Source: Thiomonas sp. (GTDB taxonomy: Bacteria > Pseudomonadota > Gammaproteobacteria > Burkholderiales > Burkholderiaceae_C). From it: a DNA stretch of 12,053 nt. The stretch lies in assembly GCA_028706735.1 (NCBI GenBank), contig JAQTVS010000054.1, positions 1-12,053 on the forward strand. Direction: 5' to 3'. A program made the translations under genes and the position numbers. Below the pieces are notes generated by a model. It was not told where the DNA came from. It saw only the letters and a list, made by a program, of their open reading frames with translations, and did not search any database. Positions 1 to 12,053 of this stretch are shown here, one piece after another (within the stretch, counting starts at the first letter, position 1; every line of letters begins with the position of its first letter).

Positions 1-3000
1 CAGATGAGCTCGGCCACTTCGCCGGCCAGGGGGTGCTGGAGGCCGATGTCGTAGCCGTCGTCGAGCTGTTTGCGCACGGCATCGATGATGAAGGGTGGCT
101 GCCAGCCTAACAGGCTCATGCCGAAGCCGCTGAGGGCGTCCACATACTCATTGCCGTCGAGATCCCACATATGGCACCCGGCGGAGCGATTGATGACGAT
201 CTGGTAAATGATTTCCTTGAGCTGCGGGCGGAAGCCGTTGACCACGCGCGGGTCGGCCAGATGCGGACGATGGCGGACGGTGTAGGCCTTGGAAGCCTTG
301 GTGCGCTCGATGTAGCGGCGCATGAAGGCGTCGAGCCGCGCCTGCTGCCGGGCGCTGAGTGTGCCGGTGGGGGTGGTGTGGATGCGGGCGATGGCGCCGA
401 AGGCCTTTTTCACGTCGTACTTGGCGTTGGCGTTCGGGCCTTCGTCATCCGCGGGCGGGGCGCTTGCCGCGGCGGGAGCGGTGTGCGCTGCGGGCGATGG
501 GGCAGGGGGCGTGGCTGCAATCGCTTGGGGGGCGGCGGGCTGAGGCGTTTGGGGCGCGGACTGCGTCTCCGCTACCGTCGGCAGGGTGAACGCTGCGGGC
601 GAGCCTCCGAGCAGGGCGAGTTGCTGCGCCATGAGTTGCATCTGCTGGGTGATGAGCTGCTGCATGAAGGGCGCGTTCGCGGTCATGGTCAGCGCAGCGG
701 GCATGGCTTGCGGGGCGAGGGCGGCGGGCTGGGTCATGGCGAGACCTCCTGCGGGTTGCGCGAGCGGGGTTTGCGGTGCGGCCTGGGGCGCGGCTGCGGG
801 CTGGACGGCGGGTTGGGCCACTTCGGGCGGGAGCTGGCTGTCGATGTGGCGGGCCAGGGCGTCGACGCTGCGGTAGCGTTCCATCAGGTCGCGGAAGGTG
901 ATGGGCAGGGCGAAGTCTTTTTTGATCTGCAGCGCGGCCTGGGTGAGGGTGAGCGAATCGAGCCCCAGTTCGACAAAGGCGGCGGTCGGGTCGGCATCGG
1001 CCAGCTCGACGCCGGAGCTGTCTTCGAACAGGGCGTTGAGGCGGGAGATGAGCGTCGGCAGGCGAGAGGCGGCTTGGTTCATGGCGGCGGTCGTCGGAAT
1101 GGGAAGGGAAGGGGCGGCGCAGTTTGCAGCGCTGGCTGGCGATGCGGCGGGCTGGAATGTGGCTGGCTGGAACGCAGCGGGTTGCGGGCTGGCTTGGGGC
1201 GCCACGGCGGCGTCCAGCCAGTAGCGTTTGCGCTCGAAGGGGTAGGTGGGCAAGAGAACGCGCTGGCGCGGCTCGGCGGCGTCGAACCAGGGGATGTCGT
1301 GCCCAAGCGTCCACAGTTGGCCGACCGCGCTGGCGAGCTGGCGCAGTTCGCTGTCGGCCGCGTCGTGCAGGCTGGGCAGGGCGATGGGCGTTCGTGCGTG
1401 CTGGCGCACCAGGGTGCTGAGCGAACCGCGCGGGCCGCACTCGATGCAGGCCAGATCGGGGTGCGCGCTCAGCGCCGTCTGCACCGCGCTGGAGAAGCGC
1501 ACGGTTTCGCGCAGATGCCTAGCCCAGTACACGGGGTCGGTGGCTTGCTCGGTGGTGAGAGTCTGCCCGGTGCGGGTGGACACAATGGGCCGCTGCGGGG
1601 CTGCACGCGGCACAGCGCGCACGGCGGCCTCGAACGGCGCGAGCGCCGGGTCCATCATGGCGGAATGGAAGGCGTGCGAGGTTTGCAACGGGCGGCTGAC
1701 CACGCCGTCGGCTTCAAGCCGGGCCTGCAGGCGGCCGATGGCCTCGCACGAACCCGCCACCACGCTGGCCTGCGGACCGTTTTCTCCGGCGAGGTCGAGA
1801 TCCGGCTGAAGATAGGGCTGCAGCGCATTGGCCGAGAGCCGCACCGACAACATGGCGCCAGGCGGCTGGGCCTGCATGAGCTGGCCGCGCAGGGCCACCA
1901 GGGCGGCGGCGTCTTCGAGTGAGAACACTCCGGCAAGCACGGCAGCGACGAATTCACCCACCGAGTGGCCGATGAGCACGCTGGGCTGCACTCCGCGCTG
2001 CAGCCACCATTGCGCCAGGGCGTATTCGACGCAGAAGGTCGCGGGCTGGGTGACGGCGGTCGGCTGCAGCGCGGCCGCATCGCCGCCGAACAGCAGCGCC
2101 TTGAGGTCGAACTCGGTGTGGGGCGCAAACGCTGCAAGGGCGTCGTCGAGCGCTTCGTGGAACTCGGGCAGTGCGTCGTAAAGGCCGCTGCCCATCGCCG
2201 CATATTGCGCGCCCTGGCCGGGAAACAGCAGGGCAAGTGGCGGCGGCGAAGCGGGCGCTTTGCGCTGGGCGCGCAGCGGGGTCTGGGAGCGCCCCCGGGG
2301 CTGGACTGCGTCCAGCCCGCCCCCCGAGGGGGACGAGGAAACTTGGGGCGGCCCTGCGTTTCCTTGCGCATCGCGCAGGGCGCGCGTGGCGTCGGCCGCG
2401 TCATCGGCCACCACGATCAGACGATGGGCAAAGGTCTTGCGGCCCACACGCAGGGTGTAGGCGCAATCGCCCAGCGGCGTGTCGGGCTGAGTGGCGAGAT
2501 GCACGGCGAGCTGCTCGGCGGACGCGGCGACGGCGCTTTCGCTGCGGGCCGATAGACGCAGGATGAACGGCCCTTGCGCGGGACTGCTGGGCGCGCGCAG
2601 CGGCGCTTCTTCCAGAACGGCGTGGGCGTTGGTGCCGCCGACGCCGAAACCGCTGACCCCGGCCCGCCTCGGCTGCGCGGTGCGCGGCCAGGGCGTGAGG
2701 TCGGCGTTGACGACGAAGGGTGTTTGCTTCAGCGCGAGCTTGGGATTGGGCGCGGTGAAATGCAGCGTGGCGGGCAGACGTTCGTGCTGCAACGCCAATG
2801 CCGTCTTGATGACCCCGGTGGCGCCCGCGGCGATGACGGTATGGCCGATATTGCTCTTGGCCGAGCCGATGCGGCAGAACTGGTTCTGGGCGGTGAACCG
2901 ACGGAACGCACGGGTGAGCGCTTCGACTTCCACCGGGTCGCCCAGCGGGGTGGCCGTGCCATGCGTTTCAACGTAGCTGATGTCCTGGGGCTCGACGCCG

Positions 3001-6000
3001 GCAGCCGCGAGCGCGGCGGCGACCACGGCGGCCTGCCCATCGACGCTGGGCGCGGTGAAGCTGGCCTTGCCGCCGCCGTCGTTGTTGATGGCGACGCTGC
3101 GGATCAGGGCGTGGATGGTGTCGCCATCGGCCAGGGCGTCAGCCAGGGGTTTGAGCAGCACCACGGCGGCGCCATCGGAGAACACCGTGCCTTGCGCCTG
3201 CGCGTCGAAGGTGCGGGTATGGCCGTCGGGCGAGAGCATCGCGCCCTCTTGGTAGAGATAACCGCTGTCGGGCGGGCAGGTGATGGAAGCGCCACCGGCC
3301 AGCGCCATGCCGCATTGCCCGCTGCGCAGGCTGTCCACGGCCTGGCCAATGGCCACCAGCGAGGTGGAGCAGCCGGTGTGCACGCTGACCGCCGGGCCAG
3401 TGAGGTCAAGGCGGTTGGCGGTGCGGGTGGCGATGTAGTCTTTCTCGTTGGCCAGCATGACCTGGAACTCGCCCAGGCGCTGCACCTTGTCGGGATGGGC
3501 GCTGACATGGCGCTGGAAATAGGTGGCGTTGTACATGCCGGCGAACACGCCCACCGGGGTGGCGGTCTGGCCCGGCACATGGCCCGCGCGCTCCATGCAC
3601 TCCCAGCACAGTTCCAGGAACACGCGCTGCTGAGGGTCCATCAGCTCGGCTTCGAGCGGGCTGATGCCGAAGAACGCGGCGTCGAAATCGGCCACGCCCT
3701 GCAGCACGCCGCGCGCGGCGACGTAGGCCGGATCGGCGCGCAGCGCGGCGGGAATGGCCGGGTCGAGTTCGTCAGGGCGGAAAAAGCGGATGCCTTCGCG
3801 GCCCTGGTCGAGCATGTCCCAGAAGGCCTCCACCGTTGCGGCGCCGGGAAAGCGCCCGGCCATGCCGATGATGGCGATGGGTTGGTCACGCAGGGTGCTG
3901 CTGTGAGCCCCATTGCGGTGGGCGGCGGTCAGGCGGTTGGCGGCGATGCCGACCTGCCCGTCGATCAGGGCGGCGATGCCGCGCGGCGTCGGGTCGCCAA
4001 AGAAGGCGGCGACGGTGAGGTCTGCATGGCCGCGCTGGCGCAGGGCGGCCAGCGCGCGCAACACCAGCAGGGAGTTGCCGCCGAGGGAGAAGAAGTTGTC
4101 ACTCGGATCGACCGCATCCAGCCCGAGCACGTGGGCGAACACGCTGGCCACTTCCTGCGCGGCAGAGGTGTCGTGCGGCTTGGATGGCGGGATGCTCGGT
4201 GCACGCCGCGTGTTGCGCGGCGGCGCTGGCAGGGCCTTGCGGTCGAGCTTGCCATTGAGGGTGACGGGCAGGCGCTCCAGCAGCATGAGGTGCGCGGGCG
4301 CCATGTAGTCGGGCAGGCGGGCGGCGAGGGCGAGGCGCAAGGCCTCTGCGCTGAGCGTCACGCCGGGCTGCTGCACCGCATAGCCCACAAGCTGCGGGCC
4401 GAGCGCGGGGTTTGGGTGAACGGCGACGGCGCAGGTGAGCACGCCGGGCTGCGCAGCCAGCGCGGCCTCGATCTCGCCAAGCTCGATGCGGTAGCCGCGT
4501 ATCTTGATCTGGCCGTCCGCACGTCCGATGAATTCGAGCGCGCCGTCGGGCCGCCAGCACACCAGATCGCCGGTGCGGTAGAGCTTGCCTTGCGGGTTGA
4601 GCGGATCGTCGATGAAGCGGCCGGTGCTCAGCTCGGGCCGGTTGAGGTAGCCGTTGGCCACGCCGCGCCCGCCCACGCACAACTCGCCCACCATGCCGCG
4701 CGGCAGCAGTTCACCGCTGGCGCTGCAGACCAGCACATGCGTGCCCTGGATGGGATGGCCGATGGGAATGGATGGGGTATCTTGTGGCAGGGTGTGGGGG
4801 ATGCGGCAGGTGGCGGTGAAGGTGGTGCACTCGGTGGGGCCGTAGCCGTTGATCAGTGCGGTGTCAGGCAGTGCGTCCAGGGCGCGGCGCACATGGGCGA
4901 CCGACAGCGCCTCGCCGCCGGTGAGCAATTGGGCCAGGCCGCGGAACCAGCGGGGATCGTCATCGACGATGGCGTTGAACAAGGCCGCGGTGAGCCAGGC
5001 GCTGTTGACGCGGTGTGCGGCAATGCTGCGGGCGATTCCGGGGCCGGTGGGGATGGTCTCGTCGTGCAGCACGCAGCAGCCGCCATTCAGCAGCGGCCCC
5101 CAGAGTTCCAGCGTCGAGGCGTCGAAACCCAGCGGGGCGGCGTGGAGCATCACGGTTGATGCGTCGAGGCGCATGAAGCGGGCGTCGCACACCAGCCGCA
5201 GGATGGCGCGGTGCGGGATGGCGATGCCCTTTGGCTCGCCGGTGGAGCCGGAGGTGTACATCACATAAGCGGTGGACTCGGGCGTGCAATTGACGCTGCG
5301 GCGGGCAGAGCGGAATGCGGCATCTTCCAGCAGCGCGCGGGCATCCAGAGCGGGCAGCGGCGCGGGGAACAGGTGTGCTGTATCAGGCTGGGTGAGGGCG
5401 AGCCGGGCCCCGGCGTCGCGCAACATGAAGGCGACGCGCTCAGCGGGAAATTTGGGGTCGATGGGCAGATAGGCGGCGCCCGCCATCAGGATGCCGAGCA
5501 CGGAGGCGATGGACGCCGGGCCGCGGTCGAGCGCGAGGGCGACGACATCGCCCGAGGCGACGCCATGCGCCTGCAGCGCGCCCGCAATCATGCCGGCCTT
5601 CAGATGCAGTTGTGCAGCGCTCCACTCGCCGCCATTCCAGCGCACGGCGGGCGCGTCGGGCTGCGCGGCAAGCATCTGCGCAGCCCGGGCGGGGACGCTG
5701 GACGCGTCGGGCGCGGCGCGTTCGGCGGGATTGAGCGCCAGCAGTTCGGCACGCTGCTCTGCACCGAGCAGATCGAACTGCCCGGCGCGCAGGGACGGAT
5801 CGGCCAGGATGGCTTGCGCTGTCTGGCCGAGGGTGCGCAGCAGGGCCTGGACGAATGCTTCGGGGTGCAGGCCGCTGGACACGAGTTGCAAGCGGCCTTC
5901 CCGTGCATCGGCCATGAGGAGCAGCGCGGACGGGTAATGGGCGAGCGATTCGGCTTCTCGCGCCGGGTCGGCCAGCCAGACGAGGTCGATCGCGTCTGGG

Positions 6001-6323
6001 TCAACCGGGGCGGCGGCCTGGGCGGAGGGGTTGTTTGCCCAGAGCGCGTTTGCGCGGTCGATGATGCTTTGCGCCACATCGCTCGCCGCACAGCCGAACA
6101 CGCAGGGTGCAGCCTTTGCAGGCAGCACGAGCAAGGCGCATTCGCTGCCGCACAGGCGATGCATCACTATGGCTGCTGCGGCCAGCCATGCGCTTTGCGC
6201 CGGTTCTTTTGCGGGTTTCAGCGACGCACGAAACGGCCTGCGCAGCGATGCCGGCACATGCGGCGCAAGCGCACCCAGACGATTCTGGTGAAAGCCGCTG
6301 TTGTTGTCGGTTGAGTTGCGCAC
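1..6323 (-). CDS. Hybrid NRPS-PKS with in-line aminotransferase (A-PCP-KS-AT-ACP-AMT), 3' end outside window
   Basis: The reading frame is uninterrupted from a GTG at 6323 to the left edge (at least 2107 residues). Residues 1-200 resemble the C-terminal half of a condensation domain and have no HHxxxDG. The A domain (about 205-700) shows AAYLPIDP near 285, [11 protein letters not shown] at 356, NGYGPTE at 492-498 and NGKLDRK at 690. The PCP has LGGNSL with Ser751. The KS (about 815-1240) has catalytic Cys985 (VHTGCSTS), His1121 (ETHGTAT) and His1161 (NIGHTV). The AT has GQGAQ at 1369, GHSVGEF with Ser1454 and HAFH at 1550, the usual malonyl-CoA signature. The ACP has LGLDSL with Ser1790. After a Pro/Ala/Gln linker comes an AMT (from about 1969, [10 protein letters not shown] at 2053), cut before its PLP lysine. 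No KR, DH or MT lies between AT and ACP. The ACP-AMT part recalls McyE and the MycA/ItuA synthases. Family and domain order are secure; product and downstream modules are unknown. Confidence 0.95.
1143..1184 (-). repeat. 15-bp tandem repeat encoding QPA(A/T)F in the AT-ACP linker
   Basis: The post-AT linker of the megasynthase contains the peptide unit Gln-Pro-Ala-Ala/Thr-Phe twice and the start of a third copy, from nearly identical 15-bp units. It is a flexible inter-domain linker and probably varies in length between strains. Confidence 0.6.
2285..2355. repeat. REP-like palindromic element inside the NRPS-PKS gene
   Basis: Three dyads follow one another: GCCCC/GGGGC (2291-2295 with 2297-2301), the perfect 8-bp arms GGCTGGAC/GTCCAGCC (2299-2306 with 2310-2317, 3-nt loop), and CCCCC/GGGGG (2320-2324 with 2328-2332). 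The block is in frame and encodes residues of about 1324-1348, a Ser/Gly/Pro/Arg-rich stretch between the post-KS linker and the AT motif GQGAQ. From memory this looks like palindromic elements that occur in many copies between genes in Burkholderiales. Copy number could not be tested here, so the dyads are observed and the REP identity is inferred. Confidence 0.55.
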
Positions 6324-6331
6324 GGAGACCG

Positions 6332-6338
6332 CCTTCCT
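6332..6338 (-). promoter_or_regulatory. Shine-Dalgarno site of the NRPS-PKS gene, fixing a GTG start
   Basis: On the minus strand AGGAAGG stands 8 nt before GTG (6323-6321). This GTG is the first ATG/GTG/TTG after the in-frame stop at 6407-6405. The first in-frame ATG lies far downstream at 6164 and has no ribosome binding site in front of it, so GTG is the preferred start. Confidence 0.75.
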
Positions 6339-6379
6339 GGTGCGGAAAGACCGTGTCGAACCCCCGTCCGGCAGATTCT

Positions 6380-6408
6380 TTCCTACGTTCGAATTGCACT
6401 GCGCTCAA
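6380..6408 (-). promoter_or_regulatory. Possible sigma-70-like promoter for the NRPS-PKS gene
   Basis: Reading the minus strand, TTGAGC (6408-6403) and TAGGAA (6385-6380) are separated by 17 bp and lie about 57 bp before the GTG start. Each hexamer matches its consensus only partly (four and three of six). The gap after the terminator-like hairpin is where a promoter would be needed. A GG-N10-GC sigma-54 pattern, which would fit PEP-CTERM regulation, was looked for in this gap and not found. Confidence 0.2.
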
Positions 6409-6491
6409 GCCAGGTTGGCTAGTCCCTAACTTGGGGTGAATGACCATCAAGACGTCAATTTCGGGAATTTTTCACCAGATGGCCACAAATG

Positions 6492-6518
6492 AAAACGCCC
6501 CGACAGGGGAGCGAGGCG
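6492..6518 (-). terminator. Rho-independent terminator-like hairpin after the tyrosine kinase gene
   Basis: On the minus strand the segment has pairing CGCCTC/GGGGCG (6518-6513 with 6501-6496) or an inner CCCC/GGGG hairpin (6509-6506 with 6501-6498), followed directly by TTTT (6495-6492). It begins 15 bp after the kinase stop codon. The T-run is short, so termination may be partial. The remaining gap to the NRPS-PKS start (6324-6491) holds no convincing gene. Confidence 0.6.
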
Positions 6519-6532
6519 CCCGGACGGAAGGG

Positions 6533-7468
6533 TCAGTAGGCGTAATAGCCGTAGGGCGAACCGGCCTTGGGCCCGCGGCTCTGGTTGAGCAGGGTGAACA
6601 CCATGGGATGGTCTTGCAGCATGCCAAGGGACTGTTGCACAGTGCCCTGGTGGGTGCGCCCGGCTTGCACCACGAACAGAATCTGCCCGGCGTGCAGTGA
6701 CAGGGCGCGCGCCTCGGCGGAGGGCAGCAGCGGCGGGGCGTCGAGAATGATGACGCGGTCGCGGTAACGGTGCGCCATTTCTTCCAGCAGCAGGTCCATC
6801 GAGGCGCTGGCGAACAGCTCGGTGGCTTGCGCGTTGGGTGTGCCTACCGGCAGGACGGCCAGCTTGGGTACGTTGGTGGCGAGGATGAGATCGGACAGGT
6901 CGAGATCGGGGTGGAGCAATTTGTCGATTAACCCCTGTGCCGGGGCGATGCCCAGACGTTCAAGCAGGGAACTGCGAGAGGGGTCGGCATCGACCAGCAG
7001 CACGGTGTGGTTGAGCTCTGCCGCGATGCTCATGGCCAGGTTGGCCGCGACGAAGGTCTTGCCTTCGCCGGGCAGTGAGCTGGTGACCATGATCAGGTTC
7101 GGGCGGTCGATCTTGCCAGCGGCTGATCCGGTGATGTTGCCAAGCAGCGGACGCTTGACCACGCGGAACTCGTCCACCAGCAGGGAACGTGTGGCATGGG
7201 GCACGATATAGCCCTGCGCCGCCAGCTTGTTGAGGTCGATCTCCACCTGCTTGGAGCGCGTGCCCATGTCCTGCGGCTTGGCCGCTGGCGGAGGCGGCTC
7301 AGCCGGTTTCACCGCGGTCGGCAGCGGACGCACGCTGCTCGGCTGCAGCAGTGGCGGTCCGGCGGGTGCGGCTGCGCCTTCAACGTTTGGGGTTGCGGCC
7401 CAGGGCACATCCACCCCTGCGGCGCGGAGTTCTTCGAGTCGTTTGACGGCTTGTTCGATGGTGCTCAT
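6533..7468 (-). CDS. XrtA-type exopolysaccharide tyrosine autokinase (BY-kinase, TIGR03018-like)
   Basis: This 311-residue cytoplasmic P-loop protein has the marks of a bacterial tyrosine kinase: Walker A LPGEGKT at 132-138 (Lys137), Walker A' VLLVDADP at 156-163, Walker B VIILDAPP at 239-246, and a C-terminal tyrosine cluster (Tyr306, 308, 309, 311) that is the usual autophosphorylation tail. The first 85 residues are a Pro/Ala-rich leader and a linker. Such kinases work with a separate Wzz-like membrane partner, here encoded just upstream, and their phosphorylation cycle sets polymer length and export. The ATG is chosen because AAGGA lies 5 nt before it. That site overlaps the upstream gene's TAA stop and the gap is 8 bp, which points to translational coupling. 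It is the last gene before the hairpin at 6492-6518. The family call is firm; EPS type is not known. Confidence 0.93.
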   Translation of the reverse strand: MSTIEQAVKRLEELRAAGVDVPWAATPNVEGAAAPAGPPLLQPSSVRPLPTAVKPAEPPPPAAKPQDMGTRSKQVEIDLNKLAAQGYIVPHATRSLLVDEFRVVKRPLLGNITGSAAGKIDRPNLIMVTSSLPGEGKTFVAANLAMSIAAELNHTVLLVDADPSRSSLLERLGIAPAQGLIDKLLHPDLDLSDLILATNVPKLAVLPVGTPNAQATELFASASMDLLLEEMAHRYRDRVIILDAPPLLPSAEARALSLHAGQILFVVQAGRTHQGTVQQSLGMLQDHPMVFTLLNQSRGPKAGSPYGYYAY

Positions 7469-7476
7469 GGTGGTCC

Positions 7477-9084
7477 TTAGACGCCAGCCTGCCGAGTGAA
7501 ATGCGACCAGATCGCCCAGAGCAGGCCGATCACGATCATTCCGGCAATGCTGAACGCCAGGTTCAGATTATTCCGCTTGTCACGGCTGAGGATTTCCGGC
7601 GAATTCAACATGGAAATACTGCCAAGGACCGGGCGGTCAATGGTTTCGCGCAAATGCCGCGGGCTGTGGAAGGTCGGCATGATTTGCGACACCACGAAGC
7701 TGGCAACCACGCCACAGGCCAGGGAGAAAAATACCAGCAGCGCAATCAACATGGGTTTGCTGGGAAACAGCGGGTGCTGCTCCACCCGCGGCGGATCGAC
7801 CACACGGAACACCGCGAGCTGCGATGACGCATCCACGCTTTGCGTCAGCCCGGCAGACTGGCGGCGGGCGACGAGGTCGTCGTAGCTCTTGCGGATGACG
7901 TCGTAGCCGCGCATCAGGCTGGCGTATTGCTGATCGAGCGCGGGCATCTGCCCGGCCTGGCTGCGCAGTTGATTCAGCCGCGACTGCGCCTCGGCCACCT
8001 GGGCCTGGAGCGACGCCACGTTGGCATCTGCCTGAGCGACCTGGACACGCAGTTGCTGGTAGGCCGGGTTGGCGGTGCTGAGCAGATTGCTGGCCGGAGC
8101 CTGCGCCGCAGCTTGGGCGGGGTGTTCAGCGGCGGCTCTCAGACGGGATTTCTTTTCCGCCTCCAGCCGGGCCAGCGTCTGGCGGGCGCTGATGACGTCG
8201 GGATAGTCATTGGTGTAGCGCTGCAGCAGGTCGTCGAGCCGGTTGCGCTGGGTCTGGATCTGGCGTTCGACGTCCAGAACGTCTGCGGGGACGGTCTGGC
8301 CAGACGGGGTGACTGCCGTTGCGCCGAGATAGGGCGAGGTGATCGTGATGGTGGGCGACTCGCCGCGCATCTGGCCGCTGATGGCATTGCGCGCAGCGAT
8401 GGCGGCGCTGAGTTGCCCCTGCATTTGCGACAGCTGATCGGAAGCCTGGTTGACGCGGGTGTAGTAGTCGACATTGGCCGCGCCGGAGTAGCCGGGATGC
8501 GCGGTCTTGAAGTCCTTGAGCTTTTGCTCGGCCGCGCTGAGCTGGCGCCCGTAGTCGGCCACCTGGGCATCGAGGAAGTTCAGCGCCTGCTGGGTGTCCT
8601 GCTGCTTGCCGCCGATGCCGGAGGTGAGAAACATATTGACCAGATCCTGCACCACGCCCAGTGCGACTTTCGGATCGCTGTTGACGTAGCTGACGCTGTA
8701 GAGGTTTTCACGCGCATTGATGCCGAGCTTGATGCTCTTGAGCAGTTGATCGACCGTGCGGTTGACAGCATCCGGCTTGCCATCATTGACCGCCAGATGC
8801 TTTTCGCGCACAAGCCGTTCCAGGTTGGGTCGGGCGAGCAGAGTGCGCGCCACCATGGCGACCTGTTCGTCGATATTGGGCTGGACGGTGAGGCCCTGCA
8901 TCAAGGGTTTGAGCAGGGTCTGGGTGTCCACATACACCCGCGCGGAGGCCATATAGCGTTCGTGGAACATGGCCACGCCGACACCGCCCAGCAGCAGGAC
9001 CACCCAGGCGGTGATCAGGCCGACCCAACGCCTGTCCCACATGCCGGGGAGGAGGTTGAAGAGAGGGCGCAGTAAATCATTCAT
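7477..9084 (-). CDS. XrtA-system polysaccharide chain-length determinant (Wzz/GNVR family, TIGR03007-like)
   Basis: This 535-residue inner-membrane polysaccharide co-polymerase has a first membrane helix at about 20-40, a long periplasmic part with heptad-like coiled-coil stretches (roughly 165-240, 270-320 and 345-410), and the Pro-rich VVDPPRVEQHPLFPSKP motif at 428-444 ahead of a second helix (about 445-467). A third hydrophobic segment lies at about 508-527. Proteins of this class control chain length and pair with the tyrosine kinase encoded next. The ATG at 9084 has no good Shine-Dalgarno (the sequence before it is CAAAGCAACACC) and overlaps the TGA of a 37-codon ORF as ATGA, so its translation is probably coupled to that ORF or to readthrough of ribosomes from upstream. 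I see no frameshift or damage. Confidence 0.93.
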   Translation of the reverse strand: MNDLLRPLFNLLPGMWDRRWVGLITAWVVLLLGGVGVAMFHERYMASARVYVDTQTLLKPLMQGLTVQPNIDEQVAMVARTLLARPNLERLVREKHLAVNDGKPDAVNRTVDQLLKSIKLGINARENLYSVSYVNSDPKVALGVVQDLVNMFLTSGIGGKQQDTQQALNFLDAQVADYGRQLSAAEQKLKDFKTAHPGYSGAANVDYYTRVNQASDQLSQMQGQLSAAIAARNAISGQMRGESPTITITSPYLGATAVTPSGQTVPADVLDVERQIQTQRNRLDDLLQRYTNDYPDVISARQTLARLEAEKKSRLRAAAEHPAQAAAQAPASNLLSTANPAYQQLRVQVAQADANVASLQAQVAEAQSRLNQLRSQAGQMPALDQQYASLMRGYDVIRKSYDDLVARRQSAGLTQSVDASSQLAVFRVVDPPRVEQHPLFPSKPMLIALLVFFSLACGVVASFVVSQIMPTFHSPRHLRETIDRPVLGSISMLNSPEILSRDKRNNLNLAFSIAGMIVIGLLWAIWSHFTRQAGV

Positions 9085-9194
9085 GGTGTTGCTTTGCGTA
9101 GAGAGGGGAGATGCGGGGCGCGAGTTCCGTGCGCTGGCGCGTTGAGCGCATTTTGTGCGGGCTCTGCGAAGTTGTCTGGATGCTCAGGAATCAT
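9081..9194 (-). CDS. Candidate 37-residue ORF bridging the ATPase-fusion and chain-length genes
   Basis: The ORF starts at an ATG whose last two bases belong to the TGA of the upstream fusion gene (ATGA, 9194-9191), and its own TGA overlaps the ATG of the chain-length gene in the same way (9084-9081). A strong GGAGG lies 7 nt before the ATG. The peptide begins MIPEHPDNF, is rich in Pro and Ala, ends with a basic LRKATP, and has no membrane segment, signal peptide or motif I recognise. It may be a real small protein, or a coupling ORF whose job is to hand ribosomes to the chain-length gene, which lacks a good site of its own. Translation is inferred from the signals only; it could also be chance in a 106-bp spacer. 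Confidence 0.5.
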   Translation of the reverse strand: MIPEHPDNFAEPAQNALNAPAHGTRAPHLPSLRKATP

Positions 9195-11341
9195 GCCTGA
9201 ACCTCCAAGGTTTCGAGTACCTGGTTTTCCCACTGAGTCATCAGCCAGGTTTCCAGCACTTGCGCGATGCGGTCGGCGGTCTTGCCATCGCAACCGAGCG
9301 GGTTCTGGCGGAATTTGTGATCGCCTTCCAGAATGTCGCCCATGGCCTGGAAAATGCGGCGGAAATCGCGTCCGACCACCAGATTGCTGCCAAGCTTGAG
9401 GGTCTGGGTCCGGGCGCAGTAGTCGTGCAGGGTGAGGCAGGGAACGCCCAGATACGAACTGGCGTCCTGCAGATTCGCGCGGTCGGTCAGCAGGCAGGTG
9501 GCCTGTTTGAGCAAGGCCAGAGTCTGGCGATAGGTGAGTTCTGGAACGCAGGCCACGCGCGCACCGCGCAAGGAGTTGCTCAGTCCGTACTGCAGCATCC
9601 GGCTGTGGATGCTGGAAGGCATCGGCCAGATCACGGGGAGGATGCGGCTCAGGCGCTTGGCATTGGCCAGCATGTCGATCATTTTTTCGCGCGCCGCGGC
9701 CCAATCGGCGTCCTGCAGCAACAGCAGTGCGTAGCCTTGCGCATTGGCGAGATAGGTCTTCGGCACGCCGATGTCTGGCGCGAATGCCTTGGGATCGGGG
9801 AGGGCGCCCAGGGACTGGATGAGGGCATCGGTGCGCAGATTGCCGACCACGCGGATGGAGTCGACGGGAATGCCGTCGTGCGTGAGCGGCGCCGTGCAGC
9901 CTGAACCGATGGTCAGATGCAAGTCCGCCAGCTGGTCGATGAGGATGCGGTCAATTTCATCCGGGTCAGCGCGCTGCCCATGACGCAGGCCCGATTCGAT
10001 GTGAGCGAGAGAGCGGCCCTGGCGCTTCGCGACCAGACCGGCCGCCAGCGCGGCATCGCTGTGTGAAAAGGTGAGGACGGCGGCCGGGCGATAGGTGATG
10101 AAAATCTGGTCGAGCCAGTTCACCCATGCGGCCAGCCCGGGCTGCGCGTCCTGCGTGTCCGGCAGCAGCGCGAGATCGATCTCGGCGAGCGCCGCATCAC
10201 TGGCGACGGCCGATGTGGACAGTTGCTCCAGCCCGACCAGAAGCGGCAGCGGCAGCCCGGAATAGCTCTTCATTTTCTGCATCAGGGGATGCAGGGCAAT
10301 GCGATCTTCCGCAGTCTGGGCGATGCAGAGCAGGGGCCCAGGCTCGCCCGGTTTGGGCGGCGCGGGCGCACGGGTGAGCGCCTCGGCAACGTCGCGAAGA
10401 ACGGGGAGGTTTTGCGAGGGGTCGTCAGCTCCGGCGCGCGGCGTGGATGGCGCGGCGCCAGGGCGGTGGACTGGGGCCGTGATGGTGGGGGGCGCGGGTT
10501 CCGCGCGCTCTGCAGGACGCAGCAGGCCGCCGATTTCCTCGCGGATTTCCCGGGCGACGGTATCGGCCCGCGTCGCGTCGATCTGGTCGGTGTTGTCGAG
10601 GAAGGCGGAGAGCAGCAGGCGGTTGCACAGCATGTTGATGCGCCTGGGCAAGCCCCCCGTCCAGTTGTAAATGGTCTCGAACGCTGCATCATCGAACTGC
10701 GGTCTTCCGGTCCAGCCCACGCGCTTGAGGCGGTGGAGGATGTAGGCGCGGGTTTCATCGGCGTCCATCGGGCCGATGTGGCAACTGGCGATGATGCGCT
10801 GGCGCAGTTGCTCCAGATTGGGGGCGCGCAGCACGTCGCGCAACTCAGGCTGCCCGACCAGGTAACTTTGCAGCAGGGCACGGTTGCCATACTGGAAGTT
10901 AGACAGCATGCGCAGCTCTTCAATGGCCGCGGGGTTGAGGTTCTGCGCCTCGTCGATGACCAGCAGCGCGCGTCGGTTCTGCAGCATCAGGGTGGTGAAG
11001 TGCGCTTCGATGGAGGCCAGCAGTTCGGCCTTGGAGGTGTTTTTGGACGGAATGCCAAACGCATTCGCCACGGCGCGCAGCAGATCGTCGGCCTCGAGTT
11101 GGGTGCTGACGATCTGGGCCGCGGCAACTTTGGTCGGATCGAGTTCGTTCAGCAGTGCGCGCACCAGGGTGGTTTTTCCCGCGCCGATCTCTCCCGTGAC
11201 AATGATGAAGCCCTCGCCCTGCATGGCGCCAAAGCGCAGGTACTGATGGGCGTAGTTGTGCCCTTTGCTCTCGAAAAGAAAGCTGGGATCGGGATTGAGC
11301 TGAAAGGGCGGGGCGCTCAGGCCGAAGTGTGCTGCGTACAT
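9191..11341 (-). CDS. Fusion of XrtA-associated ExeA-like AAA ATPase (TIGR03015-like) with UDP-GlcNAc 2-epimerase-like domain
   Basis: This is a single 716-residue ORF. Residues 1-275 are the ExeA/GspA-type ATPase that marks XrtA loci: MYAAHFGLSAPPF at the N-terminus, Walker A TGEIGAGKTT at 49-58 (Lys56), Walker B ALLVIDEAQN at 125-134, and GGLPRRIN at 229-236. A Pro/Ala linker (about 276-335) leads to a WecB-like fold: SHSD at 426-429, SLAHIESGLRHG at 444-455, DPDEIDRIL at 459-467, VVGNLRTDAL at 498-507 and a TDRANLQDASSYLG segment at 619-632. ATPases of this family are usually about 270-350 residues long and not fused. The epimerase half lacks the GTRPE arginine, the TGHRE histidine and the SGGxxEE loop of true WecB, so it is probably not an active epimerase and may only bind nucleotide-sugar. 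The gene starts 9 bp after the upstream stop without a clear Shine-Dalgarno, suggesting coupling. Confidence 0.88.
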   Translation of the reverse strand: MYAAHFGLSAPPFQLNPDPSFLFESKGHNYAHQYLRFGAMQGEGFIIVTGEIGAGKTTLVRALLNELDPTKVAAAQIVSTQLEADDLLRAVANAFGIPSKNTSKAELLASIEAHFTTLMLQNRRALLVIDEAQNLNPAAIEELRMLSNFQYGNRALLQSYLVGQPELRDVLRAPNLEQLRQRIIASCHIGPMDADETRAYILHRLKRVGWTGRPQFDDAAFETIYNWTGGLPRRINMLCNRLLLSAFLDNTDQIDATRADTVAREIREEIGGLLRPAERAEPAPPTITAPVHRPGAAPSTPRAGADDPSQNLPVLRDVAEALTRAPAPPKPGEPGPLLCIAQTAEDRIALHPLMQKMKSYSGLPLPLLVGLEQLSTSAVASDAALAEIDLALLPDTQDAQPGLAAWVNWLDQIFITYRPAAVLTFSHSDAALAAGLVAKRQGRSLAHIESGLRHGQRADPDEIDRILIDQLADLHLTIGSGCTAPLTHDGIPVDSIRVVGNLRTDALIQSLGALPDPKAFAPDIGVPKTYLANAQGYALLLLQDADWAAAREKMIDMLANAKRLSRILPVIWPMPSSIHSRMLQYGLSNSLRGARVACVPELTYRQTLALLKQATCLLTDRANLQDASSYLGVPCLTLHDYCARTQTLKLGSNLVVGRDFRRIFQAMGDILEGDHKFRQNPLGCDGKTADRIAQVLETWLMTQWENQVLETLEVQA
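9202..9207 (-). promoter_or_regulatory. Strong Shine-Dalgarno inside the end of the ATPase-fusion gene
   Basis: The minus strand reads TGGAGG (9207-9202), within the codons for the fusion protein's last residues (LEVQA), with a 7-nt spacer to the ATG at 9194. It is the best-matched ribosome binding site seen in this operon and serves no annotated start other than the 37-codon ORF. Confidence 0.6.
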
Positions 11342-11350
11342 GGGCCGTGG

Positions 11351-12053
11351 TCAGAATTGGTGCGTGAGACCCGCATAGATCGCCGATTCGTTGGCGTTCA
11401 GGATGCCGGTGTTGGCGGTATCGAGAAGCTGCCTGCGGGCGCCGACCACCAGGATGGTTTGCGGGGACAGGCGGCGATTGAGTTGCACGATGAAGCTGGT
11501 CTGGCGGGTGCTGATCCCTTCATTCAGGCCAAAGCCGGTGCTCAGCGCGCGCAGCACGCCGACGTTCAGACTCATCACCGGACTCAGACGCCGGCCGTAG
11601 CTCAGGCCAATGCCGTTCTGCACATAATTGGCTGAGCCGGTGAGCAGATTGTTCAAGGGCGGCGTGCCCGGCAGCATCAGATCCTGTGTCTTGGTGTGGA
11701 ACAGGGAAGCCGAGTAACTGTTGCGCTGCGCCAGCAACACGGCCGTTGCGGTGAACGTGTCTTGCAGCGTCGCCGACTGGGTGTAGTAATTGATGGCGTT
11801 GGGCAGGGTGGACGGCAGCCCGGTCACGGCCAGCAGGTTTTGCACAGCGCGCGCACGCGCTGTTGGATCCGGGTATTGCGAGGCCAGCATGCCGTTGAGC
11901 AGGGTGGATAGGCTCACGCCGGACGGAATGGTTTGCAGGCCGGCCAGGAAGGTCGATGGGCCGCGGTTCCAGTTCATGCGCAGACTGAGACGCTGGATTT
12001 GCTGCGAGGCATGGATGTCCCACCCCGTGCCGAAGAAGCGCCGCTCGACCACG
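11351..12053 (-). CDS. Outer-membrane beta-barrel protein of XrtA/PEP-CTERM EPS locus (TIGR03016-like), 5' end outside window
   Basis: The last 233 or more residues of this protein are present and the frame stays open to the right edge. The GTG at 12052-12050 is internal, not the start. The sequence alternates polar and hydrophobic residues in beta-strand fashion, for example QTSFIVQLNRRLSPQTILVV and the terminal ESAIYAGLTHQF, and ends in phenylalanine, the usual last residue of a BAM-inserted barrel. Position directly before the XrtA-type ATPase gene matches the uncharacterised PEP-CTERM-associated outer membrane family, which is thought to help polysaccharide leave the cell. Signal peptide and N-terminal strands lie outside the window. 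The barrel call is fairly sure; the family name rests partly on context. Confidence 0.75.
   Translation of the reverse strand, partial: VVERRFFGTGWDIHASQQIQRLSLRMNWNRGPSTFLAGLQTIPSGVSLSTLLNGMLASQYPDPTARARAVQNLLAVTGLPSTLPNAINYYTQSATLQDTFTATAVLLAQRNSYSASLFHTKTQDLMLPGTPPLNNLLTGSANYVQNGIGLSYGRRLSPVMSLNVGVLRALSTGFGLNEGISTRQTSFIVQLNRRLSPQTILVVGARRQLLDTANTGILNANESAIYAGLTHQF

Follow-up and report, generated by a model that had tools for sequence, protein, structure and literature searches.

Mycosubtilin synthase MycA, whose domain order we take to be acyl ligase (AL), acyl carrier protein (ACP), ketosynthase (KS), acyltransferase (AT), ACP, aminotransferase (AMT), condensation (C), adenylation (A), peptidyl carrier protein (PCP) and C, is one described counterpart of the locus analysed here, a two-protein hybrid of nonribosomal peptide synthetase and polyketide synthase (NRPS-PKS) encoded in part on a 12,053-nucleotide stretch of Thiomonas sp. 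DNA (assembly GCA_028706735.1, contig JAQTVS010000054.1, positions 1 to 12,053; the window). A 2013 survey by Milano et al. (PMC3870968) states in its main-text parts that the MycA AMT aminates an ACP-bound beta-ketothioester with glutamine as the donor, and already tabulates the order A-CP-KS-AT-CP-PLP1 (CP, carrier protein; PLP, pyridoxal phosphate), with Pedobacter heparinus C6XWU5 as an example and related layouts in Salinisphaera and Thiorhodococcus. Those proteins share the order seen here and a PLP domain of the glutamate-1-semialdehyde aminomutase type, a likeness of description and not of sequence; the survey gives predicted chains for them and no isolated product, and its main-text parts mention neither an exopolysaccharide (EPS) context nor a C-terminal tail. 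The domain order is therefore neither unique nor new, and the hint of an unusual order given in an earlier note on this DNA falls away, since the same order recurs in 61 of 80 related loci. Two features, both missed by that note, did not turn up in print within our literature search: a tie to polysaccharide export, and a tailed partner protein that lacks a thioesterase (TE); among titles and abstract starts, outside subscription papers and preprints, we found no publication on a link between such a synthetase and EPS or PEP-CTERM systems.

The first synthetase gene is a minus-strand frame of 2107 residues that starts at 6323 and leaves the window at its left end. Pfam finds in it AMP-binding, AMP-binding_C, PP-binding (two stretches), the N and C parts of ketoacyl-synt, Acyl_transf_1 and the start of Aminotran_3, with scores well past chance for A, KS and AT (268, 235 and 169 bits). 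The complete order of the protein is half C domain, A, PCP, KS, AT, ACP and AMT:

5709..6323, minus strand: N-terminal remnant that matches just the C-terminal half of a C domain and lacks HHxxxDG (hhalign)
4248..5669, minus strand: A1 adenylation domain, code DALWLGGTF(K), Val-like (PF00501, 268 bits; PF13193; alignment)
3963..4154, minus strand: PCP1 carrier with the GGNSLL serine motif (PF00550)
2757..3884, minus strand: KS, active-site Cys and His motifs present (PF00109, PF02801)
1398..2228, minus strand: AT with GHSVGE and HAFH, malonyl type (PF00698, motifs)
834..1061, minus strand: ACP carrier with ELGLDSL, limits set around the motif (PF00550, motif)
3..236, minus strand: first part of the AMT, a class III aminotransferase (PF00202)
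L009:7539-8819, on contig C168: remainder of the AMT, lysine codon at L009:8184-8186 (PF00202)

The earlier note had read A-PCP-KS-AT-ACP-AMT across 1..5280; the order stands, in one minus-strand frame, but the start moves to 6323, since the A domain (4248-5669) and the half C domain (5709-6323) reach beyond that limit. The window is the entire contig C69, one of 425 contigs in a draft genome of 2.93 Mb that is 92.5% complete, and about 78 AMT residues fall within the window, a piece that scores 31.9 bits against a cut-off of 30.5. The rest lies on C168, whose right end overlaps window positions 1-155 with 152 of 155 bases identical, and which carries the frame on to its stop (RLDA*). Because three of these 155 bases differ, the assembly may hold a strain mixture. 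The join is supported because the same gene runs unbroken in other Thiomonas genomes (2488 residues in G001, 2495 in G002, 2494 in G003 and 2510 in G005), and in G001 both synthetase genes are uninterrupted. The closest named relatives of the window's AMT are also from Thiomonas.

For comparison we kept 80 of 198 genome stretches that encode AMT relatives; counts of loci refer to these. The PLP lysine of the AMT, which the earlier note had wanted sought to the left of the window, is present on C168 in YGKVVGGG, a motif found in 80 of 80 loci. The best PDB match of the AMT is MycA (6kfm, 362.7 bits, against 167.7 bits for glutamate-1-semialdehyde aminomutase), which agrees with the note's assignment to the beta-aminating class III type; the comparison was made with MycA through the PDB. 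As in MycA, the AMT adjoins an ACP, and KS-AT-ACP-AMT is followed by C-A-PCP-C. HAFH, which we take to be the malonyl-specific AT motif, occurs in 66 of 67 family members and fits the extension by malonyl units proposed earlier. The active-site Cys of the KS is present in 63/63, and the second KS His in 58/63 when searched with a broad pattern (a narrower first pattern matched 14/63). Moreover, the 2107-residue frame has no Pfam match to a ketoreductase, as the note had held, and inspection by eye found the ketoreductase accession PF08659 in none of the best 120 of 2134 family proteins. In 64 of 64 members the distance from the end of the AT to the start of the AMT is 300-499 residues, and because this span also holds the ACP and linkers it leaves no space for a ketoreductase.

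Unlike MycA, which begins with a fatty acyl ligase (AL-ACP), the present synthetase begins with an A-PCP module for amino-acid loading, and the unit made would therefore carry a second amine. Pocket codes were read by alignment at positions that we take from PheA, giving DALWLGGTF (Val-like) for A1 and DILQLGMVW (Gly-like) for A2 of the second protein, with the final lysine motif present in both domains. Across the family, the first A1 code residue is Asp in 60 of 60, the Val-like pattern DA.[WF].G.TF appears in 48 of 60, and the code is exactly DALWLGGTF in 26 members, while the second-protein A code reads DILQLG in 37/76, the window genome included. A few other A1 codes are, by our presumed labels, Thr-like (L035, L070, L089, L093) or Pro-like (L079, L101, L102), which suggests that these relatives might make different 3,4-diamino acids. 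In the part of PMC12283262 consulted, DALWIGGTFK is one of the commonest codes in the Leu/Ile/Val section and is also given alongside Val codes, and DILQLGMIWK is given for four Gly domains.

Ahead of A1, the N-terminal remnant (5709..6323) has no match in single-sequence Pfam, yet when 61 family N-termini (some short) were compared with 161 family C domains by hhalign they aligned to C columns 235-459 only (probability 97.3, E 1.9e-11). HHxxxDG is present in 0 of 54 of these N-termini, and because only half a C domain remains, without this motif, we expect no acylation of the first amino acid in cis. No acylating module adjoins the gene in the window, where the next gene upstream encodes a kinase. 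Two objections foreseen in the earlier note, a missing AMT lysine and an upstream acylating module, were thus checked and do not overturn its reading. Compared with NRPS-PKS lines that start from an amino acid, the locus has an Asp-first A code, a PCP, a KS, a malonyl AT, no ketoreductase and no functional C domain ahead of A1.

Each chemical step can be predicted from these domains and motifs. A1 would load an amino acid, probably valine, onto PCP1, and the KS and malonyl-specific AT would extend the aminoacyl-PCP1 to a 4-amino-3-oxoacyl-ACP. As no ketoreductase is present, the 3-oxo group would be left for the MycA-like AMT, which would turn it into an amine and give a 3,4-diaminoacyl-ACP (with valine, 3,4-diamino-5-methylhexanoyl). 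We consider it likely that the assembly line makes such a 3,4-diaminoacyl unit. The second protein would then add a Gly-like residue, and the predicted chain is probably 3,4-diamino-5-methylhexanoyl-Gly. Vicinal 3,4-diamino acids are amino analogues of statine and seem little described as units of natural assembly lines; a literature search on such names turned up a single paper, on synthetic chemistry, and 'vicinal diamine' appeared in none of 15 listed papers. Thus the 3,4-diamino reading first offered in the earlier note is partly supported, in that its domain reading holds and its chemistry is plausible, whereas the unusual domain order it implied does not hold.

The second gene lies close behind the first on C168 and encodes a protein of 1651 residues that begins MDTPNAS, with a C-A-PCP-C-PCP layout according to Pfam matches and domain order. 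In contrast to MycA the line is thus split over two proteins and lacks a TE, none being found by Pfam in the window genome's second protein, so it does not resemble a TE-terminated NRPS; of the C-A-PCP-TE modules that the note had suggested seeking downstream, the C-A-PCP part is there and the TE is not. After removal of two cut sequences (L042, L077) from 74 partner proteins, 5 of 72 end in a TE by Pfam and 67 do not, the latter called from length and tail, with Pfam run among these ends on the window genome's own. The TE-less partners end in a short basic stretch, e.g. GGLIKRLFGGLSRNA, and the net charge over the last 25 residues is at least +2 in 65 of 67, while in the five TE-bearing partners it is +1 or less. 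We propose that the chain would wait on the last PCP, that the basic tail would hold this PCP at the membrane, and that the chain would pass to a polysaccharide-linked acceptor or leave with the exopolysaccharide; this anchoring and transfer, or co-export, is put forward tentatively.

The proposal draws on the genes upstream, which run in the same direction as the synthetase:

6533..7468, minus strand: XrtA-type tyrosine autokinase, directly upstream of the synthetase (TIGR03018, above the curated cut-off)
7477..9084, minus strand: XrtA-type polysaccharide chain length determinant (TIGR03007, above the curated cut-off)
9191..11341, minus strand: XrtA-type ATPase fused to a UDP-GlcNAc 2-epimerase-like domain (TIGR03015, above the cut-off; PF02350)
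11351..12052, minus strand: TIGR03016-like outer-membrane protein, partial, continuing on C177 (82.7 bits against a cut-off of 90.85)

The full-length G001 relative of the last protein scores above the cut-off, and beyond the cassette C177 carries a pepcterm_export protein, whose G001 relative was the one tested by profile. The fusion of ATPase and epimerase we consider ordinary; the pair was also seen by eye in the best 120 of 1399 relatives, where ranking and length limits favour fusions. As in XrtA/PEP-CTERM EPS systems, a TIGR03016-like outer-membrane protein, pepcterm_ATPase, pepcterm_ChnLen and pepcterm_TyrKin thus lie in one direction. Unlike those systems, the Thiomonas locus has the synthetase in the place expected for glycosyltransferases, and exosortase (TIGR02602) had no match at E 0.001 in five of five Thiomonas genomes, with a model that gave 258 bits in G016 as a control; an exosortase-based locus in Thiomonas was accordingly rejected. 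Among 50 relatives, exosortase was above the cut-off in three and matched at E 0.001 in 17. In G016 (L033) the strong match shares a contig with the AMT at a distance of about 35 kb, and the synthetase can thus lie near a true XrtA system too.

Additional support comes from Poly_export (Wza-type) genes, searched, like exosortase, in 50 genomes picked from the 80 loci mostly for long contigs. In 28 of 50, Poly_export and the AMT share a contig and lie no more than 60 kb apart (no more than 40 kb in 26), where about 2.4 would be expected under random positions if contigs and kinship are ignored. The association is strong in Lysobacterales, as grouped from record titles (21/24), and weaker elsewhere (7/26). 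In 23 of the 80 loci (up to 21 kb) we find a sugar transferase, Wzy_C, GT2, polysaccharide deacetylase, PaaK-like or export-cassette relative, each neighbour-gene cluster being named from one representative. In Rhodanobacter C06 a third NRPS protein (C-A-PCP) comes after the synthetase pair, and then GT2, Wzy_C, a flippase and GT1; beyond GT1 the locus also holds an alpha/beta hydrolase, a porin, Wzz and Wza.

Put together, these data allow a fuller scenario, in which the NRPS-PKS family would make a 3,4-diaminoacyl-glycyl chain that is passed, free of any TE and by way of a membrane-seeking last carrier, to an exopolysaccharide or lipid-linked precursor, and so would yield a cationic, peptide-decorated surface polymer. 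As a whole we regard it as rather unlikely, and several observations weigh against it and against the main reading that it extends. The A1 and A2 codes are each one position off the codes printed in the portion of PMC12283262 consulted. Helical moment ranks within the top 5% of shuffles for just 13 of 67 tails, and for that reason the predicted formation of an amphipathic helix by the basic tail is no more than suggested. PCP3, the last carrier, lacks in Thiomonas an A domain in cis that would load it. The 28 genomes with Poly_export nearby are not phylogenetically independent and were chosen, with the rest of the 50, from the 80 loci; the other 22, among them most Variovorax and the two myxobacteria, lack a Poly_export gene within 60 kb, although in some of them the contig ends before that distance. 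Finally, the Thiomonas locus showed no glycosyltransferase, and where Wzy_C and sugar transferases were found in Thiomonas they lie elsewhere in the genome. Should the tie to EPS be true, assembly lines for secondary metabolites would be connected with the decoration of polymers.

The strongest rival holds that the 3,4-diamino acid ends up in an ordinary diffusible small molecule (a short peptide, siderophore or signal), that a hydrolase acting in trans releases the chain, and that the EPS genes are neighbours by chance or through shared regulation. This too is a possibility to be held loosely; we treat the free metabolite and hand-over to a polysaccharide acceptor as equal rivals and prefer the hand-over. 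The five TE-bearing partners and the 22 genomes without a nearby Wza speak for a diffusible product, as do alpha/beta hydrolases of two clusters, which in 20 of 80 loci adjoin the synthetase, with GxSxG in 11/12 of one cluster and 3/13 of the other. Their scanned representatives resemble hydr1/hydr2_PEP below the curated cut-offs; but the hydr2_PEP-like genes of Thiomonas are below the cut-off as well, the G001 copy and the AMT are about 500 kb apart, and the hydr2_PEP search also matched in 7 of 14 control genomes. The 67 TE-less partners and the excess of nearby Wza genes argue against free release, and none of five scanned window proteins resembles a resistance or small-molecule export gene.

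It is improbable, in our view, that the AMT is inactive or acts at another position, with the 3-oxo group cyclising to a tetramate or pyrrolidinone, or that the 3,4-diamine itself cyclises on the thioester. 4-Amino-3-oxo thioesters are prone to cyclise, but the AMT is MycA-like with its lysine motif conserved throughout, and the C domain that follows it has HHxxxDG in 74 of 74 family members, for which reason a linear acyl donor is expected. A trans enzyme that acylates or aminoacylates the C4 amine before extension, leaving no free vicinal diamine, is no more probable: the half C domain suggests an ancestor with a full condensation domain, and a Condensation match occurs in three of the best 120 relatives (P0085, P0102, P0110) and, among the 61 complete first proteins, at the N-terminus of L100, but the N-termini lack HHxxxDG and the next upstream gene in the window is the kinase, genome-wide trans enzymes being outside the search.

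The loading of PCP3 can be viewed across the family. A C-A-T-C-A-T layout (T, carrier) occurs in 22 of 73 second proteins and in one fused protein, and the third A domain code is Gly-like in 13 of 24 rows, the other 11 having given meaningless letters and been set aside. In the window genome a stand-alone ligase on C403, a candidate loader of PCP3, is ligase_PEP_1-like (448.5 bits, below the cut-off of 592.35). The gene after the synthetase pair on C168 is glyoxalase II-like, named from its relative in L025. A FemAB-type XrtA transferase was also considered and rejected: the TIGR03019 search gave one weak match in one of five Thiomonas genomes, and the G001 gene after the synthetase proved to be a Cupin_8/JmjC oxygenase. 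This oxygenase directly follows the second gene in G001 (L115:12836-13876), one of the same type lies upstream of the pair in L049 (L049:470-1498), and members of two such clusters, one of which takes its name from a representative that scores below the Pfam cut-off, occur in 15 of 80 loci; such an enzyme could hydroxylate the product.

Members of the synthetase family occur across Burkholderiales and Lysobacterales. Of the 80 loci, 61 hold the complete first protein (A-T-KS-AT-T-AMT), counting a few rows in which A or AT matches twice or an extra N-terminal match occurs, and in 19 it is cut or split. Of 7991 candidates scored in the protein collection, 2134 match the ACP-AMT part at 1e-20, and 106 of the best 120 of these carry PF00501 by eye. 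The AMT was found in 12 of 13 Thiomonas genomes, the window's included, and in 10 of 200 genomes of the wider family, three of them Thiomonas and two matching at only about 50% within much longer proteins. Within the first synthetase gene, a GC-rich repeat of about 80 bp at window positions 2284-2366 lies in frame in the KS-AT linker and has matches at dozens of genome sites; because this linker measures 132 residues in the window and in L027 against 105 in L025 and G001, about 81 bp of inserted sequence seem to be translated inside the synthetase. In the same genome a separate long frame on the minus strand of G000:C266 (L011), at about 9300-15750, has two A-domain matches.

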